Below, piece after piece: positions 2,368-43,723 of a stretch of 64,000 bases of DNA (position 1 is the first letter of the stretch; the number at the start of each line of letters is the position of its first letter). The notes below the pieces were generated by a model, which made no database searches, had not been told where the DNA came from, and worked only from the letters and a program-made list of their open reading frames with translations. The position numbers and the translations under genes are program-made. The stretch lies in NCBI GenBank assembly GCA_958295805.1, contig OY282373.1:1707001-1771000 (forward strand), written 5' to 3'. This stretch comes from an uncultured Nitrospirales bacterium. GTDB taxonomy: Bacteria; Nitrospirota; Nitrospiria; Nitrospirales; UBA8639.

Positions 2368-4458
2368 CTACGACGAAACCGCCTCCTTCGCGGCTTTCTG
2401 CTCCTCAATGACCTTATTGGCCACTTCGCGGGGCGTCTGTTCATAACCCGACAATTCCATGACGTATGAGCCTTTCCCAGCGGTAATGGAGGTTAAGACC
2501 GGCGCGTATTTCAGAATCTCCGCCAGCGGCACCAGGGCTTTGACGATCTGATTATGACCTTTCGCATCCATGCCTGAGATTCGACCCCGACGGCCGTTCA
2601 AATCTCCGATGACCGTCCCGACCAGATCATCCGGGGCGGTGACCTCAATCATCATGATTGGTTCCAGCAATGTGGGCTGAGCCGATTCCATGGCTTTTTT
2701 GAATCCCATTGACGCCGCGACTTTGAAGGCCAGTTCCGAAGAATCCACGGGATGATGAGACCCGTCGTACACCGTCACTTGCAGGTCCACGACCGGGAAG
2801 CCCGCCAACGCGCCCTCGCGCATGGCCTCCACCACCCCTTTTTCTACCGCGGGAATAAAATTCCGTGGAATCACCCCACCCACGATTTTGTTGAGAAACT
2901 CAAATCCCCCGTTACGCGGCAACGGGTCAAGCTGAAGCCAACAATCGCCGTATTGCCCATGGCCGCCCGTCTGTTTTTTGTATTTGCCCTGGGCTTGGGC
3001 CATTTTCTGAATCGTCTCCCGATACGCGACTTTCGGCGTGTGCAGGTTGACGTCCACTCCGTATTTGCGCCGCAGTTTTTCCAGGGTCAACTCGATGTGC
3101 GTCTGGCCGACGCCGCTCAACAACATTTCCTTGGTCTCATCATTTCGGATAAATTCCAACGATGCGTCCTCTTCAACCAACTTGTGGAGACCGAGACTCA
3201 CTTTATCAACGTCGGCTTTGGCTTTCGGCTCAAGCGCAAACGACATGACGGGCCGGCTGAGTTTCACCGGCGGAAAGACAATCGGATGTTTGTCGGCACA
3301 AATCGTATCGCCCGTTTGCGTGTCCTTTAATTTTCCAATTGCCACGACCTCACCCGCGGCGACGCGTTCCGTCTGTGTACTTTTCTTGCCCAGCAGACGA
3401 TACAGGTGTCCCCCTTTCTCTTTGGCGTTTCGCACGGGATTGAAAAAGTTTGAATCGGCTTCCAGGGCACCCGAACAGACCTTGACGTAGGTAAGCCGCC
3501 CCATGAAGGGATCGATGGTCGTCTTGAACACAAAGCCGGAAAACGGTTCCTCCGCACTCATCGCGCGCACGACCTCTTCTCCGGTTTGCGGATGAGCGCC
3601 GGTCAACGGCGAGGCTGTCGCTCGCTCGACGGGAGACGGTAACAGTTGAACGATGGCCTCCTGCAACGTCGTGATTCCAACGTTCCGAGTCGCCGAGCCG
3701 CACAACACCGGGATAAACTGACGGTTCTTCGTGCCCAAAACCAACCCCTGCACGACCTCCGCCTGCGTGAGGTCGCCTTCGCTTAAATATTTTTCCACCA
3801 GGTCGTCGTTGGTTTCTGCGGCATTTTCAACCAATTGTTTCCGAAATTCGGACGCGGCGTCGTTCACGTCTCCGGGGATTTCGTCTTCCTGGATTTTATG
3901 ACTGTCGGGCACGGGGAACACGGCCTTTTGCGTCACCACGTCCACCACTCCCCGCAGGTTCGTCTCCTGGCCTATGGGATACGCAATCGGCACGCACTTA
4001 GTCTCAAGCGTTTTCCGAACGTCTTCCAGAATCGCTTCAAAATTTGATCGTTCCTTGTCCAGTTCGTTGATAAACACCAAGCAGGGAAGCCCGCGTTCTT
4101 GAATGAAATCCCACACCCGATCCAATTCCGAACGTATCCCCGACGACCCGATCACCAACACCACGGCGTCCGCCACGTGAACGGTGTTTTTGGTATCGGC
4201 AAAAAAGTCCAACGACCCGGGCGTGTCAAAGAAATTCAGGCTGGTGCCTTTATACTCATAGTGCAGAAGCGCCGTACTCATGGAATGCTGATGTTGAACT
4301 TCTTCCTGCTCAAAATCGGCCGTGGTATTGCCACCGGAGGTCGTCCCCATTGATGGGATCACACCGGCTGAGAACAACAGGGCTTCAACGAGAGAGGTCT
4401 TGCCGGCACCGACATAGGACGCAAAAACCACGTTTCGGATGAAATTGGATTGTGTCAT
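2368..4458 (-). CDS. Elongation factor G-like translational GTPase (EF-G2 type)
   Basis: About 696 aa with the complete EF-G plan: GTPase domain, beta barrel (domain II), two alpha/beta domains and the domain IV/V region (QTGGHGQYGDCWLQL; GRRGRISGMD). The P-loop reads SYVGAGKTS rather than the canonical AHIDAGKTT of EF-G. G3 is DTPGSLDFF instead of DTPGHVDF, and G4 is NELD. This divergent set is typical of EF-G paralogues (FusA2/EF-G2-like) rather than the main translocase, so I do not call it fusA. The start at 4458 is chosen because AAGGAGGGCGT lies just upstream; the frame is open seven codons further. It appears monocistronic. Its specific role in translation is unknown. Confidence 0.88.
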   Translation of the reverse strand: MTQSNFIRNVVFASYVGAGKTSLVEALLFSAGVIPSMGTTSGGNTTADFEQEEVQHQHSMSTALLHYEYKGTSLNFFDTPGSLDFFADTKNTVHVADAVVLVIGSSGIRSELDRVWDFIQERGLPCLVFINELDKERSNFEAILEDVRKTLETKCVPIAYPIGQETNLRGVVDVVTQKAVFPVPDSHKIQEDEIPGDVNDAASEFRKQLVENAAETNDDLVEKYLSEGDLTQAEVVQGLVLGTKNRQFIPVLCGSATRNVGITTLQEAIVQLLPSPVERATASPLTGAHPQTGEEVVRAMSAEEPFSGFVFKTTIDPFMGRLTYVKVCSGALEADSNFFNPVRNAKEKGGHLYRLLGKKSTQTERVAAGEVVAIGKLKDTQTGDTICADKHPIVFPPVKLSRPVMSFALEPKAKADVDKVSLGLHKLVEEDASLEFIRNDETKEMLLSGVGQTHIELTLEKLRRKYGVDVNLHTPKVAYRETIQKMAQAQGKYKKQTGGHGQYGDCWLQLDPLPRNGGFEFLNKIVGGVIPRNFIPAVEKGVVEAMREGALAGFPVVDLQVTVYDGSHHPVDSSELAFKVAASMGFKKAMESAQPTLLEPIMMIEVTAPDDLVGTVIGDLNGRRGRISGMDAKGHNQIVKALVPLAEILKYAPVLTSITAGKGSYVMELSGYEQTPREVANKVIEEQKAAKEAVSS

Positions 4459-38025: not shown

Positions 38026-38796
38026 ATGTTGTTGACCATTGACGTTGGAAACACGCAAATCGTCTTTGGTGCCTTCGATCATCAAAGCCTGCGACATTCA
38101 TGGCGAGTCGCCACGGACGCCACCAAAACCGCGGATGAATTCGGCATCACGTTCGTCTCGCTCATGCGGGAATTCGGGATTTCACCTCAAGATATCCAAG
38201 GAACGATCATCTCCAGCGTCGTCCCTCCTCTCACCCCGACTATTGAAACTCTGGTCGCGACCTATTTTCATCATGACCCGCTTATCGTGTCTTCGGACTT
38301 CCCCTTCGGGTTGACCCTGGACTACGCCAACCCACGGGAAATCGGGACGGATCGTCTGGTCAACGCCGCAGCCGCATACGAACGCTACCACACGAATCTC
38401 ATCATCGTGGATTTTGGAACCGCCACCACGTTTTGCACCGTGACCAAAGATGGACGGTATTTGGGTGGCGCCATTGCCCCTGGGTTAAAATCTTCAGCGG
38501 AAACCCTCCACGCGCAGACGGCCACACTCCCCAACGTTGACCTTGCCCCTCCCGAAAAGGTGATCGGGAGTGATACGGCCAGCAGTATGCAATCGGGATT
38601 GATTTTTGGGTACATCGGGCTGGTTGATGAACTGGTGACCCGCATTCAACAAGAAATCAGCCAATCGACCACCGTGATCGCCACCGGCGGCCTTGCCCCG
38701 ATTCTTGCGCCGCTCACGCGAACCATTCAAGACGTCCTCCCCTTCTTAACGCTGGAAGGCCTGGAATTACTCTATCGCCGTCAAAACAGCCGATAG
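38026..38796 (+). CDS. coaX: Type III pantothenate kinase
   Basis: 256 aa, first step of coenzyme A synthesis. ASKHA-fold motifs: MLLTIDVGNTQIVFGAF at the N terminus, SSVVPPLTPTIE, NPREIGTDRLVNAAAAYERY, IIVDFGTATTFC and GGAIAPGLKSS, followed by VIATGGLAP. Length is standard. It is preceded by birA with a 62-base gap. Confidence 0.93.
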   Translation: MLLTIDVGNTQIVFGAFDHQSLRHSWRVATDATKTADEFGITFVSLMREFGISPQDIQGTIISSVVPPLTPTIETLVATYFHHDPLIVSSDFPFGLTLDYANPREIGTDRLVNAAAAYERYHTNLIIVDFGTATTFCTVTKDGRYLGGAIAPGLKSSAETLHAQTATLPNVDLAPPEKVIGSDTASSMQSGLIFGYIGLVDELVTRIQQEISQSTTVIATGGLAPILAPLTRTIQDVLPFLTLEGLELLYRRQNSR

Positions 38797-38854
38797 GGCC
38801 CCTGATACAACAGGCTTTTTGAAATGATCCGCATCCCAGGTTTCCCCGTGGTTC

Positions 38855-38950
38855 GTAGCTGCGCGATCTTATCGCGCCTCCCGGCTTGTCATGCAGACGG
38901 ATCTGCGAAAGCGCTTCGCATCCCCAAACGAGGCACCATGAGATGAGAGG
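38855..38950. repeat. Mini-element copy, GTAGC end intact, right end eroded
   Basis: GTAGC at 38855 is followed by the perfect hairpin GCGCG-ATCTTAT-CGCGC (38861-38877). The interior GCCTCC...CATGCAGACGG...CTGCGAAA parallels the copy at 29035. The right end keeps CCATGAGATG but has lost the arm and GCTAC. It occupies most of the coaX-grpE gap, just upstream of the heat-shock genes; a weak TTGACT-16-TATCTG promoter-like pair at 39014-39041 lies between it and grpE. Confidence 0.65.
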
Positions 38951-39063
38951 ATCGCATGAATTTCCCCTATCTATACCGCTATACCGGTTCCTATCTTTTT
39001 TTCATTCCCTGGGTTGACTTCTCCCACTCTAGGACTATCTGAAGGGAACGCCGGGGAAACCTC

Positions 39064-39705
39064 ATGGACGAAAATATTCAACCAAAGGATGCAGATCAGA
39101 ACGAGTCCATTCTCGAATTACCCAAGACCGCCTCTTCCGACGAGGCCGTCAAAGAACTTCCAGAAAATCCTCAACAAAATGAAGAGGTTGGCGAAAATCA
39201 GACCCAACTCCTCAACAAAACCGACGAGATTGAAGCCGTAAACGACAAATATTTACGCCTGGCCGCGGAATTTGAAAACTACAAGCGTCGCGTCCAACGG
39301 GATCAGAGCGATACCATTCGGTTTGCGAATGAAAAGTTGTTACGGGACATGCTGCCCACGTTGGATAATCTGGAACGAGCCATTCAATCCGGCCGAAACC
39401 AAGACAACGTCGACAAACTCCTCGAAGGCATTGACCTCACGTATAAACATTTTATCGAGACTCTCCAGAAAATGGGGATGACGCAAGTCTCGAGCGTTGG
39501 GGAAATCTTTGATCCCGCCAAGCATCAAGCCGTAGGACAAGTGGAATCCTCAAGCGTCCCCGAAAACGCCATCGTCGAAGAATATCAGAAGGGCTATTTT
39601 CTCCACGATCGAATATTACGGCCTGCGATGGTCACCGTTGCCAAGGCCATACCTGCCACGCCCGACGGAGAAGCAACGCAACCGCAGGAAGGAGCACAAA
39701 CATGA
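39064..39705 (+). CDS. grpE: GrpE nucleotide exchange factor
   Basis: 213 aa. An acidic, disordered N terminus, a long helix ([27 protein letters not shown]) and the C-terminal beta domain with [14 protein letters not shown]-like sequence ([18 protein letters not shown]) and [21 protein letters not shown] identify GrpE, which releases ADP from DnaK. The stop overlaps the dnaK start as ATGA. Confidence 0.95.
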
Positions 39706-41639
39706 GCAAAATTATTGGAATTGACCTTGGAACGACAAACTCGTGTATCGCCATCATGAGCGGCGGCGATCCCGAAGTGATTGCCAATTCGGAAGGCGGT
39801 CGAACCACTCCGTCGGTCGTGGCGGTCACGGATAAAGATGAGCGATTGGTCGGCCAGATTGCAAAACGTCAGGCCATTACAAATCCTGAAAACACCATTT
39901 TTTCCGTCAAACGCTTGATGGGACGGCGATTCAATTCCAAAGAAGTCAAAAACGCGATGCAGCGACTGCCGTATAAAATGACCGACGCCGCCAACGGGGA
40001 CGTCAACGTGGAGATTCGAGGGAAGCCGTATAGCCCCCCTGAAGTGTCGGCCATGATTCTGCAAAAGATCAAACAGACGGCTGAAGATTATTTAGGCGAA
40101 ACCGTCACGGAGGCGGTGATTACCGTGCCCGCCTATTTTGATGACAGCCAACGTCAGGCCACCAAAGACGCCGGCCAAATTGCGGGGCTCAACGTGCTTC
40201 GCATCATCAACGAGCCCACGGCCGCTTCATTGGCGTATGGTCTGGATAAAAAGAAAGAGGAACGCATCGCCGTGTACGACCTTGGCGGCGGAACCTTTGA
40301 CATTTCGATTCTTGAAATCGGAGACGGCGTGTTTGAAGTGAAAGCCACCAACGGCGACACGTTTTTAGGCGGCGACGACTTTGACCTTCGCGTCATTGAT
40401 TGGTTGGTGAATGAATTCAAGAAAGATCAGGGCATCGACCTGAAAAACGACCGCATGGCGCTCCAACGGCTGAAGGAGGCCGCGGAACGAGCCAAAATCG
40501 AACTGTCCTCGGCGCAAGAAACGGAAATCAATTTGCCCTTTATCACGGCCGATGCCAGCGGACCTAAGCATCTGGCATTGAAACTCACTCGATCCAAATT
40601 TGAACAATTGGTCGATGACTTGATTGCCCGCTCCATCGAACCCTGCAAACGAGCATTGGCCGACGCCGGCATTTCCGCGGGCGAGGTCAATGAAGTGGTC
40701 CTCGTCGGCGGGATGACTAGGATGCCCAAGGTCATTCAACGAGTCAAAGAGTTCTTCGGCAAAGAACCACATAAGGGAGTCAATCCTGATGAAGTCGTGG
40801 CCGTAGGCGCGGCCATCCAGGGCGGAGTGCTCAGGGGAGACGTCAAAGACGTGTTGTTGCTGGACGTGACCCCGTTGTCATTGGGCATCGAAACGTTAGG
40901 CGGGGTGTTCACCCGGCTCATTGATCGCAACACGACGATTCCGACTAAGAAAAGCCAGATTTTCTCCACCGCAGCCGACAATCAAACCGCGGTCACTATC
41001 CGAGTCTTTCAAGGCGAACGCGAAATGGCCAACGACAACAAACTGCTCGGCCAATTTGATCTAGTGGGCATTCCCCCTGCCCCGCGAGGGATGCCGCAGG
41101 TTGAAGTCACGTTCGATATCGACGCGAACGGGATTGTCCACGTATCGGCCAAGGACATGGCCACGCAAAAAGAGCAATCGATCAAAATCACGGCATCAAG
41201 CGGGCTCAGCAAAGAAGAAGTCGAACAATTAGTTAAGGAAGCCGAAGCCCATACGGAAGAGGATAAAAAACGTCGTGAAACCGTCGAAGTCCGCAATCAA
41301 GCCGATTCTCTGATTTACGGAACGGAAAAAAACCTCAAAGAACATGGCGAGAAAATCCCCGAAGAGGAGAAGACCACAATTCAAGAGGCCATTACCGGCA
41401 TGAAAACCGCCATGGAAGGGGAGGACGTCGAAGCCATGAAAGCCGCCATGCAAACCCTGACCACGGCTTCACACAAACTCGCGGAAGAAATGTATAAAAG
41501 TACCTCCGCCGAGACCGCCACAGCCGGTTCCCCCGGCGACGATACAAAAGCCGACGGCGACGACCAACCCTCCGACGGAGGCAACGAAAAAGTGGTAGAC
41601 GCCGAATTTGAAGAAGTTGATAAGGAGAAGAAATCTTAA
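39702..41639 (+). CDS. dnaK: Chaperone DnaK (Hsp70)
   Basis: 645 aa. ATPase domain: [33 protein letters not shown] and [12 protein letters not shown]. The linker [18 protein letters not shown] is followed by the beta-sandwich substrate domain and helical lid, with the usual acidic, disordered tail ending in [15 protein letters not shown]. Coupled to grpE by four bases; separated from dnaJ by two inserted genes. Confidence 0.98.
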
Positions 41640-41672
41640 ACGCTTAGTGGATGATTACAAAAGTATTTGTCA

Positions 41673-42191
41673 ATGAACGATCCTGATAACCCCATCGTTG
41701 ATATGCTGACTGTACGCAGGGACTTATACCTTGTGATGAGTCTGCTGCTGGCCGATGAAAGGGTGGACGAAGTACAAAACGTTGTTGTCTGGACACGAGT
41801 TTTCCACGAAAACGAGGTCCGTAGATTGATGCTATGGGTAGCGACGGCGATGCGTGGTTTGTTGGACTTGCTGGACAGAGAAAAAGATACCTTCAGCAAG
41901 CAAAATTGCGGCGAATATTGGGCTACTTTTCCAAAAGATAGCGAGAAACCGCTCGCATTGACGTTCAGGCAGGCTTGCAACTCCGTCATTCATGCCAAAG
42001 AGATATTGCCTTATCGTACCCCGAAACGGGACTCAATAGAGAACGTTAATCGAGTTTATACGAACAGAATCACGGTAAGGGGTACAAACCAAGGCAAGAC
42101 GACCCGCGCACAGCTTGATATAATCAAGTTTGTGCAGATAGCATACGGGTTAACCAAATCTTTTGAGGAGGACCGTTATGCCAACGGATAG
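41673..42191 (+). CDS. Hypothetical protein inserted between dnaK and dnaJ
   Basis: 172 aa from the ATG at 41673 (an in-frame TTG six bases earlier is less likely). Mostly helical and soluble, with no recognised motif. A C-terminal VRGTNQGKTTRAQLDIIKF suggests surface contacts. Base composition is more A+T-rich than dnaK/dnaJ. It overlaps the next gene by 14 bases, so the pair is probably one transferred unit. Confidence 0.68.
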   Translation: MNDPDNPIVDMLTVRRDLYLVMSLLLADERVDEVQNVVVWTRVFHENEVRRLMLWVATAMRGLLDLLDREKDTFSKQNCGEYWATFPKDSEKPLALTFRQACNSVIHAKEILPYRTPKRDSIENVNRVYTNRITVRGTNQGKTTRAQLDIIKFVQIAYGLTKSFEEDRYANG

Positions 42192-42402
42192 AGACACCTA
42201 CAGATACCATTTCAAGAAGGGCAATAAAATTGTCCATACGGGTATTACCAACGACATAGACCGCCGAGAGGCAGAGCACCGGCGTGAACCTGGATTGAGC
42301 AAAGGACATATCAAGCAAGTCGGTTTTCGTACGAATTACGACGCTGCCTTTAGCTGGTTGCAGGAACAGAAAAAAAACGGCAAGCCGGTCCTGCAAAGGT
42401 AG
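42178..42402 (+). CDS. Small GIY-YIG-like protein (tentative)
   Basis: 74 aa from the ATG at 42178, with TGAGGAGG upstream inside the preceding gene. The sequence YRYHFKKGNKIVHTGITNDIDRREAEHRRE resembles the core of the GIY-YIG fold (Tyr/Tyr strand, GIT, then Arg and a following His/Glu), but the domain is short and the second half is unassigned. It might be a minimal nuclease-like or nucleic-acid-binding protein. Coupled to the 172-aa gene. Confidence 0.5.
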   Translation: MPTDRDTYRYHFKKGNKIVHTGITNDIDRREAEHRREPGLSKGHIKQVGFRTNYDAAFSWLQEQKKNGKPVLQR

Positions 42403-42466
42403 TATGTGAAACTGACCTGAGAGTCAAATTTCTACTTCACCGGTAATACCAAGATCGTCAATCACT

Positions 42467-42518
42467 GCAAAACCGACTTCCCCGTTCCCCTAACGTTACC
42501 CCGCCAGAACGGTTTTGC
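42467..42518. repeat. 9-bp inverted repeat downstream of the inserted pair
   Basis: GCAAAACCG (42467-42475) and CGGTTTTGC (42510-42518) face each other across 34 bases in the 193-base gap before dnaJ. It could be a loose terminator stem or an end of the inserted segment. Confidence 0.4.
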
Positions 42519-42595
42519 ATATCGACTATTGAGTCAAGGAAGTGCGCAAGGCAGAGCATGCGTGATTTCCAGTCTTCATTCATAGATCAGAAAAG

Positions 42596-43723
42596 ATGGC
42601 GAGCGTGACCAAACGAGATTATTACGAAGTTCTCGGAATCGGCAGGGAGACGTCCGATGACGAGATCAAGAAGGCCTTTCGACGGCTCGCCCGTCAATAT
42701 CATCCCGACCTTCACAGTGACCCGCAGCAGAAGAAAAAAGCCGAAGAAAAGTTCAAGGAAGCCAATGAAGCCTATGAAGTCCTGAGTAATCCTGAACTGC
42801 GGAAGCGGTACGACACGTTCGGACATTCCGGAGGCCCACAAGGATTCGGCGGAGCCGAAGGTTTCGACGTTGGTCGAGGATTCGGGGATATTTTTGGAGA
42901 CGTATTTGAAGATTTTTTTGGAGGAGGCAGAGGAGGCCGCACCCGTCAGGAACACGGTCACGATCTTCAATACAATCTGGAACTTTCCTTTGAAGAAGCG
43001 ATTGACGGGAAGGAAGCCAAACTCAAAATCCCCAGATGGGAAGGCTGTGATTCCTGCCACGGCACCGGGGCCAAATCGGCCAACGCCGTCAAACCCTGTC
43101 CCGCTTGCCAGGGGATGGGACAAATTCGACTGCAACAAGGGTTTTTCACCATCAATCGAACCTGTGGGCAATGTCAGGGAGCGGGACAGATTATTGCCGA
43201 GCCGTGCCCAACGTGCCGAGGGCAGAAGCGCGTGTATCGGGAACGAACCTTATCGGTGACGATTCCCCCGGGGATTGAAACCGGTATGCGCCTGCGTTTG
43301 GCTCGCGAAGGCGAACACGGCTTCAATGGAGGGTCTCCCGGCGACTTGTACGTCGCGATCACGATCAAACCACATTCGGTTTTTGCCCGAAACGGCAATG
43401 ATATTCTGGTTGATCGATCTATTGACATTGTCACCGCCACCCTCGGGGGAAAAATTGAGGTTCCCACCATAAAAGGAAAAACCATCCTGAAAATTCCTGA
43501 AGGGACCCAACACGATCGCGTTCTTCGGCTCCAAGGGCTGGGGGCGCCCGCCTTGAAAGGGCGTGGCAAAGGCGATCAACTCGTCCAGATTAAAATCCAT
43601 ATTCCTACCAAACTGTCGGCCAAACAACGAGAACTGCTGGAGGCCTTTGCCAAAGAAGGCGGGACGTTGACGGACGAGCAGAAAGACGGCCTTTTTGGTA
43701 AAGTCAAAAACATGTTCGATTAA
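42596..43723 (+). CDS. dnaJ: Chaperone DnaJ (Hsp40)
   Basis: 375 aa. J domain with YHPDLH (HPD) near residue 35, a Gly/Phe-rich linker (GFGGAEGFDVGRGFGDIFGD) and four zinc-binding CxxCxG repeats (CDSCHGTG, CPACQGMG, CGQCQGAG, CPTCRGQK), then the C-terminal substrate domain. It is a type A Hsp40 partner of DnaK. The gene is separated from dnaK by 956 bases. Confidence 0.97.
   Translation: MASVTKRDYYEVLGIGRETSDDEIKKAFRRLARQYHPDLHSDPQQKKKAEEKFKEANEAYEVLSNPELRKRYDTFGHSGGPQGFGGAEGFDVGRGFGDIFGDVFEDFFGGGRGGRTRQEHGHDLQYNLELSFEEAIDGKEAKLKIPRWEGCDSCHGTGAKSANAVKPCPACQGMGQIRLQQGFFTINRTCGQCQGAGQIIAEPCPTCRGQKRVYRERTLSVTIPPGIETGMRLRLAREGEHGFNGGSPGDLYVAITIKPHSVFARNGNDILVDRSIDIVTATLGGKIEVPTIKGKTILKIPEGTQHDRVLRLQGLGAPALKGRGKGDQLVQIKIHIPTKLSAKQRELLEAFAKEGGTLTDEQKDGLFGKVKNMFD

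Follow-up and report, generated by a model that had tools for sequence, protein, structure and literature searches.

How two small genes came to lie between dnaK and dnaJ, and what they might do there, is the question raised by this locus of the window (the whole stretch of 64,000 nucleotides analysed here). The two overlapping reading frames of 172 and 74 aa that the initial annotation placed between the chaperone genes were found at the positions given. ORF1 (41673..42191, + strand, 172 aa) begins with an ATG at 41673, 33 nt past the end of dnaK (39702..41639, + strand), and its stop is at 42191. ORF2 (42178..42402, + strand, 74 aa) overlaps it by 14 bp (42178..42191, + strand) and has an AGGAGG upstream of its start, within ORF1. 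A gene-free stretch of 193 nt leads from ORF2 to an intact dnaJ (42596..43723, + strand), and the dnaK-dnaJ interval amounts to 956 nt. Both ORFs have a GC content of 47-48%, against 53% for dnaK and dnaJ and 54% for the window. The dnaK of the window carries two extra C-terminal residues (KS) relative to the 12 congeners examined; a second dnaK-like gene (G000:C1:869140-870924, 48% identity) has counterparts across the genus. The ORFs are real and not chance frames, as indicated by their homologues in pair-bearing congeners (68-75% identity for ORF1, 76-92% for ORF2) together with low dN/dS.

The pair had been regarded as a foreign insertion into a heat-shock operon, for which the empty site was to be looked for in relatives. 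The search for dnaK and dnaJ in 14 genomes of the genus bears this out: the pair lies inside the gap in just three of them, namely the genome of the window (G000), G001 and G011, ten have a gap of 70-163 bp without the pair, and in one (G013) the gap is interrupted by a contig end. Nine of the empty gaps measure 70-102 bp (G002, G003, G004, G005, G006, G007, G008, G010, and G012) and that of G009 measures 163 bp. With the pair missing from the gap in 10 of 14 genomes, it is a late arrival in the genus, and an old operon member is ruled out by the empty sites of the congeners. Nor is it a phylum-wide member of the dnaK-dnaJ interval, since ORF1 occurs in 4 of the 395 sampled genomes of the phylum, every one of them in the genus of the window. 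The kinship of these genomes and the names borne by ORF1-matching relatives (Nitrospira sp. RHO3_bin_20, CO36405bin_1, and bin75) suggest that this genus is Nitrospira ‘bin75’ (Ca. Nitrosymbion). The GTDB genus ‘bin75’ is reported as a Nitrospirales genus that occurs chiefly in marine sponges, has been given the proposed name Ca. Nitrosymbion, and is rich in toxin-antitoxin modules (PMC11812461).

The gap shows other irregularities among the congeners. For example, the G013 contig ends behind dnaK (L029/L017, G013:C80) and this genome, 98% complete, has no full-length dnaJ; the break in the assembly may have been caused by an insert in the same gap. The G011 gap holds about 1.5 kb besides the pair, which includes a 263-aa ORF between dnaK and the pair (L002:2184-2975) without a Pfam match, and an apparent further repeat is seen in the stretch before dnaJ. 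Likewise, the 163-bp gap of G009 (L030) contains a near-perfect palindrome, GTAGGGGCGACCGGCCGGTCGCCCCTAC, of REP- or MITE-like appearance, which suggests that the dnaK-dnaJ gap took other inserts as well. The empty gaps of G005, G006, G010, and G004 (L023, L024, L025, L044) share a hairpin-like CTCAG..GTTTTCC / GGGAAAA..CTGAG, seemingly covarying and absent from the window, which is perhaps a processing or attenuation element.

Regarding expression, the + strand from dnaK to dnaJ contains no terminator-like site, and ORF1 starts as close as 33 nt behind dnaK, which together make read-through of the pair likely. The pair may thus be co-transcribed with dnaK and, as had been suggested initially, could come under stress (heat-shock) control; dnaJ, in turn, probably depends on the read-through. 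A scan of the window at up to 3 mismatches gave no CIRCE element, the five promoter-like sites against 3.2 expected are no evidence of a promoter, the 193-nt spacer folds no better than its shuffles (z -0.8), and the region 38500-43000 gave no Rfam match up to E=1. The operon position, the common strand, and the missing terminator-like site would also suit a lineage-specific accessory of the chaperone operon that acts with DnaK and DnaJ under heat stress; this explanation is highly improbable, as the pair occupies the gap in only 3 of 14 genomes and all its other copies are elsewhere. The 9-bp inverted repeat reported behind the pair does exist, at 10 bp (TGCAAAACCG / CGGTTTTGCA, 42466..42519, no strand assigned, with arms at 42466-42475 and 42510-42519 and a spacer of 34), and it is only mildly unusual: an equally long repeat turns up in 0.8% of shuffled versions of the 193-nt spacer (5000 mononucleotide shuffles) and, within this sequence, in 13 of 658 windows of equal size. 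It was considered as the end of a mobile element and rejected because 13 of the 658 windows were as good and because two other copies have homologous tails in which the arms are not preserved; it is probably incidental.

The pair is a real module, found intact at ten places. Four of these are in Nitrospira (G000, G001, G011, and G006) and six in Gammaproteobacteria (G410, G452, G830, two in G831, and G848), the latter reached via Ca. Spongiihabitans thiooxidans (G410), a gammaproteobacterium of the order Arenicellales; by the grouping of the search tool, G452 falls in the class of G410, and G830, G831, and G848 in its order. ORF1 of these pairs is 27 to 75% identical to the window copy, and the overlap is exactly 14 bp in nine of the ten, G452 having instead a gap of 6 bp. 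The layout of two small co-oriented genes, close or overlapping, is that of toxin-antitoxin modules. In the genome sets, which are samples and not all genomes, ORF1 was found in 6 of 369 genomes of the class of G410 (distant lone relatives counted) and, at the level of its order, in 5 of 109; ORF2 was found at E<=1e-8 in 3 and 7 of these, respectively, and at E<=0.001 in 28 of the 395 genomes of the phylum, seven of them strong. Every close-family ORF1 (10/10) has an adjoining ORF2, and ORF2 also occurs alone. The distant ORF1 relatives of a Burkholderia plasmid and of G666 are without ORF2, which implies that ORF1 is not always in need of it. G008 carries two ORF2 copies, each after the in-frame last codons of an ORF1. 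As a separate observation, G831:C96 (L104:496-1035) has tandem ORF2 copies after a single ORF1, both devoid of R30 and of the W-E glutamate, with dN/dS of about 0.2 all the same.

Both genes are under purifying selection, as judged from substitution patterns among paired copies. The dN/dS of ORF1 is 0.10-0.26 in six comparisons (0.18-0.26 among the Nitrospira pairs) and that of ORF2 is 0.07-0.26 in eight (the same range in the Nitrospira pairs); the comparison of G410 with G452 is saturated for both genes. For orphan ORF2 copies, the values are 0.08 (G011-G013b), 0.35 (G006-G013b), and 0.61 (the two G008 copies).

Within the genus, the history of the pair seems to differ from that of its flanks. 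In a tree built from dnaK+dnaJ of 12 genomes (without G004 and G013, in which one gene is broken or missing), G001, G011, and G009 cluster together, and G000 stands far off with empty-site species between. The synonymous divergence of G000 and G001, a measure open to distortion by base composition and codon bias, is 0.64 [0.47-0.88] for the pair vs 1.14 [0.97-1.37] for dnaK+dnaJ, the pair being lower in 999 of 1000 bootstraps, which argues for transfer and not descent of the pair in these two genomes. Similarly, G000 and G011 differ by 0.85 in the pair vs 1.22 in dnaK+dnaJ (pair lower in 954/1000). The relation is reversed between G001 and G011 (0.38 vs 0.21, pair lower in 2/1000), which is explained at least in part by a mosaic in G001: its ORF1 part resembles that of G011 (mostly 82-98%), and its ORF2 resembles that of G000 over the last third (86-92%, vs 65-80% to G011). 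The mosaic and the dS pattern imply that the carriers swapped pieces of the pair or got them from related donors. A non-coding tail of about 90 nt behind ORF2 (42403..42490, + strand) is common to G000, G006, and G013b, and probably moved together with the pair.

There are also signs that the pair has been exchanged horizontally across phyla. In the ORF1 tree, the type of G830, G831, and G848 groups with that of Nitrospira, apart from G410 and G452, despite G410 being of the same order as the former three. Ca. Spongiihabitans additionally contains a decayed, Nitrospira-like ORF1 start with stops and frame breaks, the first segment of which is 56-61% identical to the Nitrospira copies; over its first 23 residues, an ORF2 remnant there shares 78-91% identity with the paired copies of the four Nitrospira genomes and 61% with the intact ORF2 of Ca. 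Spongiihabitans itself. Insertion into the gap and horizontal exchange are, taken together, very probable. These decayed copies, along with the ORF1 remnants of G008, might be expected of a functionless hitchhiker in decay. This reading is hardly credible for the window copy, which it fails to fit on two counts: its ORFs are intact, and dN/dS is far under 1 over a dS of about 0.5-1.0. As for a vehicle, neither ORF was found in viral contigs, phage records gave no match to the pair, and plasmids gave no ORF2 at 1e-5 and a single distant relative of ORF1, on a plasmid of Burkholderia contaminans. On this plasmid, pB1701 (L064:5929-6480), the ORF1 relative lacks an ORF2 and lies downstream of, and co-oriented with, genes annotated as PAAR, VRR-NUC, and type VI immunity. 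The lone distant relative in G666 (L091:1498-2190 and 2617-3219) is divergent from an ORF that by eye resembles an integron-integrase-like tyrosine recombinase, and with this neighbour it may be a gene cassette. The G006 copy of the pair sits after an ORF recognised by eye as an IS3-type transposase.

The likeness of the 74-aa protein to GIY-YIG proteins, noted in the initial annotation, is weak by sequence and is backed by the predicted fold. ORF2 matches PF01541 with E=0.017 and 15.9 bits, below the gathering score of 22.6, and two of its relatives reach 19.9 and 19.0 bits; NCBIfam, PHROGs, and PADLOC gave no match up to E=10. The predicted model is of fair confidence (pLDDT 83.7). The top five Foldseek rows are UvrC GIY-YIG domains at weak E values of 0.3-0.5, and VIA-align ranks the I-TevI catalytic domain first (Z 5.5, rmsd 2.9, 70 residues), with unrelated MbtH-like rows next, from Z 4.8 downwards, and rows of other folds also near. 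In a profile comparison of weak significance (E of 0.019), ORF2 can be aligned with UPF0213 protein BH0048 via G22, the RR pair, and the W-E glutamate. With G22, the RR pair, and His34 shared with this superfamily (PF01541; BH0048, PDB 1zg2; I-TevI catalytic domain, PDB 1mk0), ORF2 has a divergent GIY-YIG fold by prediction. It differs in having Y-H-F instead of GIY and H-T-G instead of YIG, in scoring under the Pfam gathering threshold, and, in the window copy, in having leucine for the canonical catalytic glutamate. The positions of the catalytic Arg and Glu were placed by alignment to 1zg2. The window copy keeps R30, H34, and E63; E63 lies two residues beyond Leu61, which occupies the Glu position. 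The W-E glutamate is replaced by leucine in four of the ten pairs (G000, G001, G830, and G831b), two of which have also lost R30 (G830 and G831b); both residues are retained in the other six. Among the seven orphan ORF2 copies, Glu is kept in six and Arg in all, which would suit an active nuclease.

These residues bear on whether ORF2 could itself be the effector, as a small GIY-YIG nuclease that targets invading DNA and for which ORF1 would be the sensor, specificity factor, or inhibitor. The fold, the Arg and Glu kept in 6/10 pairs and the Glu in 6/7 orphans, the R30, H34, and E63 of the window copy, and the distant ORF1 relatives that manage without ORF2 would all agree with such a role. 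GIY-YIG proteins also figure in the tested anti-phage systems PD-T4-3 and PD-lambda-1, where they stand amid defence genes as ORF2 does; the likeness is one of description, and the account of these systems drawn on here mentions no ORF1-like partner (PMC10952713). The loss of Glu in 4/10 pairs, including the window, and of Arg in 2/10, with ORF2 still under selection, speaks against it and makes this explanation rather unlikely. A homing-type selfish element, in which cleavage of an empty dnaK-dnaJ site by ORF2 would be followed by copying of the pair into it, is very improbable, even with the GIY-YIG fold, the I-TevI domain as best VIA-align row, and the same gap occupied in three congeners. 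The nuclease domain fills the 74 aa of ORF2, with no room for the separate DNA-binding domain of homing endonucleases, the distances of the pair to dnaK and dnaJ differ among the carriers, the gap sequence itself is not conserved among congeners, other copies are at unrelated sites, and the window ORF2 is without the Glu.

ORF1 belongs to an undescribed family. It matched nothing in Pfam, NCBIfam, PHROGs, or PADLOC up to E=10, comparison of its profile with solved structures gave chance-level rows only, and its predicted model is unusable (pLDDT 41.7, four sequences used). Five residues, E48, R61, C102, H107, and D149, are invariant across 12 family members, including the lone relatives of the Burkholderia plasmid and G666, and this set could form an active or metal site. 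There is some likeness to HEPN proteins, as R99 is kept in 11/12 members and H107 in 12/12, and conflict systems often include small accessory proteins of this sort. The spacing is however R99-x7-H107, with Asn replacing R99 in G410, and the HEPN motif follows the rule Rx4-6H (PMC3710099); by this motif rule ORF1 is therefore not a HEPN protein, and it gave no match to Pfam HEPN.

A mobile module linked to defence islands had been suspected at the outset, and the other copies do often lie near defence genes. Counting ORF2 places at E<=1e-8, with the decayed one excluded and the tandems of G008 and of one G831 place each taken as one, 9 of the 19 places have defence-type genes within about 4.5 kb, with weak matches in two; this is a raw count with no background rate. 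The neighbours belong to restriction-modification, AbiL, AbiJ-like, Thoeris-type TIR, and OLD-like ATPase classes. For example, G008 has AbiLi, AbiLii/RloB, and PDC-S32/AbiJ; G006 has PDC-S32 (C-terminal part) and a HEC-05/GmrSD-type gene; G452 has ThsB TIR and 8xMP; and G452b has type I restriction and specificity genes with PDC-S35. Others are a HEC-04-like ATPase (G013b), a type IIG enzyme (G830), and PDC-S13 (G831a), and the weak cases are an HTH-Panacea regulator (G013a) and a PsyrA/DprA-like gene (G831b). The remaining ten places (G000, G001, G011, G410, G848, G070, G421, G818, G823, and G828) are without a defence match or have neighbours outside the scan; by eye, the G410 copy lies between pth- and rplY-like genes, and the gene adjoining that of G823 is SIR2-like, without a Pfam or PADLOC match. 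The association of the pair with defence islands is suggestive only. PDC-S32/AbiJ-type genes were further seen to precede the module in G008:C13 (L019:5012-11624) and in G006 (L110:10823-11698); G008 also has AbiLi/AbiLii with a DprA-like gene, and a DprA-like gene follows ORF2 in G830 and G831. Given the common PDC-S32/AbiJ and DprA-like neighbours, the copies may derive from an older island.

The pairing, coupling, selection, mobility, and neighbours of the two genes together argue for a conflict module. The explanation preferred here, which we hold with about even confidence, is an undescribed mobile two-gene cassette of defence or toxin-antitoxin-like type, with ORF1 as the active component and ORF2 as its partner. 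A cassette that circulates in bacteria associated with sponges, in two phyla or more, would have inserted 33 nt behind dnaK, where transcription from grpE-dnaK probably reads through it. ORF1 and ORF2 would be made together through the 14-bp overlap and the ribosome-binding site of ORF2 inside ORF1. ORF1, with its invariant E/R/C/H/D set, would be the active or costly component and hence a candidate effector; ORF2, as a small GIY-YIG-fold protein, may restrain ORF1 or license it on nucleic acid. This division of roles is the weakest step and is tentative, if not doubtful. ORF1 is favoured as effector because ORF2 outlives ORF1 in G008 and because a paired ORF2 can lose nuclease residues while remaining constrained.

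The pair resembles type II-like toxin-antitoxin modules in being small, overlapping, mobile, and consistently gap-free, with one partner found alone, and differs from them in that known toxin and antitoxin families gave no match to either protein; with PADLOC, no known anti-phage system was matched by either ORF up to E=10. A small toxin-like module, as proposed initially, is plausible, and the interpretation of the initial annotation is as a whole partly supported. A literature search on GIY-YIG proteins in defence, toxin-antitoxin, or sponge settings, on dnaK-dnaJ insertion, and on defence in sponge Nitrospira gave, among the titles listed, none that describes the pair. The fullest version of the preferred reading, a new effector family with a GIY-YIG protein turned antitoxin or sensor, exchanged across phyla by sponge symbionts and, in some Nitrospira, captured by the heat-shock operon such that its dose tracks chaperone demand, is unlikely.

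According to published reports (PMC5649159, PMC11812461), toxin-antitoxin and restriction genes are overrepresented in the genomes of sponge symbionts. As a toxin-antitoxin or defence module, if it is one, the pair would add an effector family that has no entry in Pfam, NCBIfam, PHROGs, or PADLOC, and would suggest that a GIY-YIG fold is able to lose its nuclease residues while paired; if true, it would also document the exchange of modules between phyla of sponge symbionts. The dnaK-dnaJ gap can accept a foreign cassette with dnaJ left intact. Coupling to stress, if true, would make the insertion striking, and the locus offers a natural test of whether defence genes gain from heat-shock transcription.
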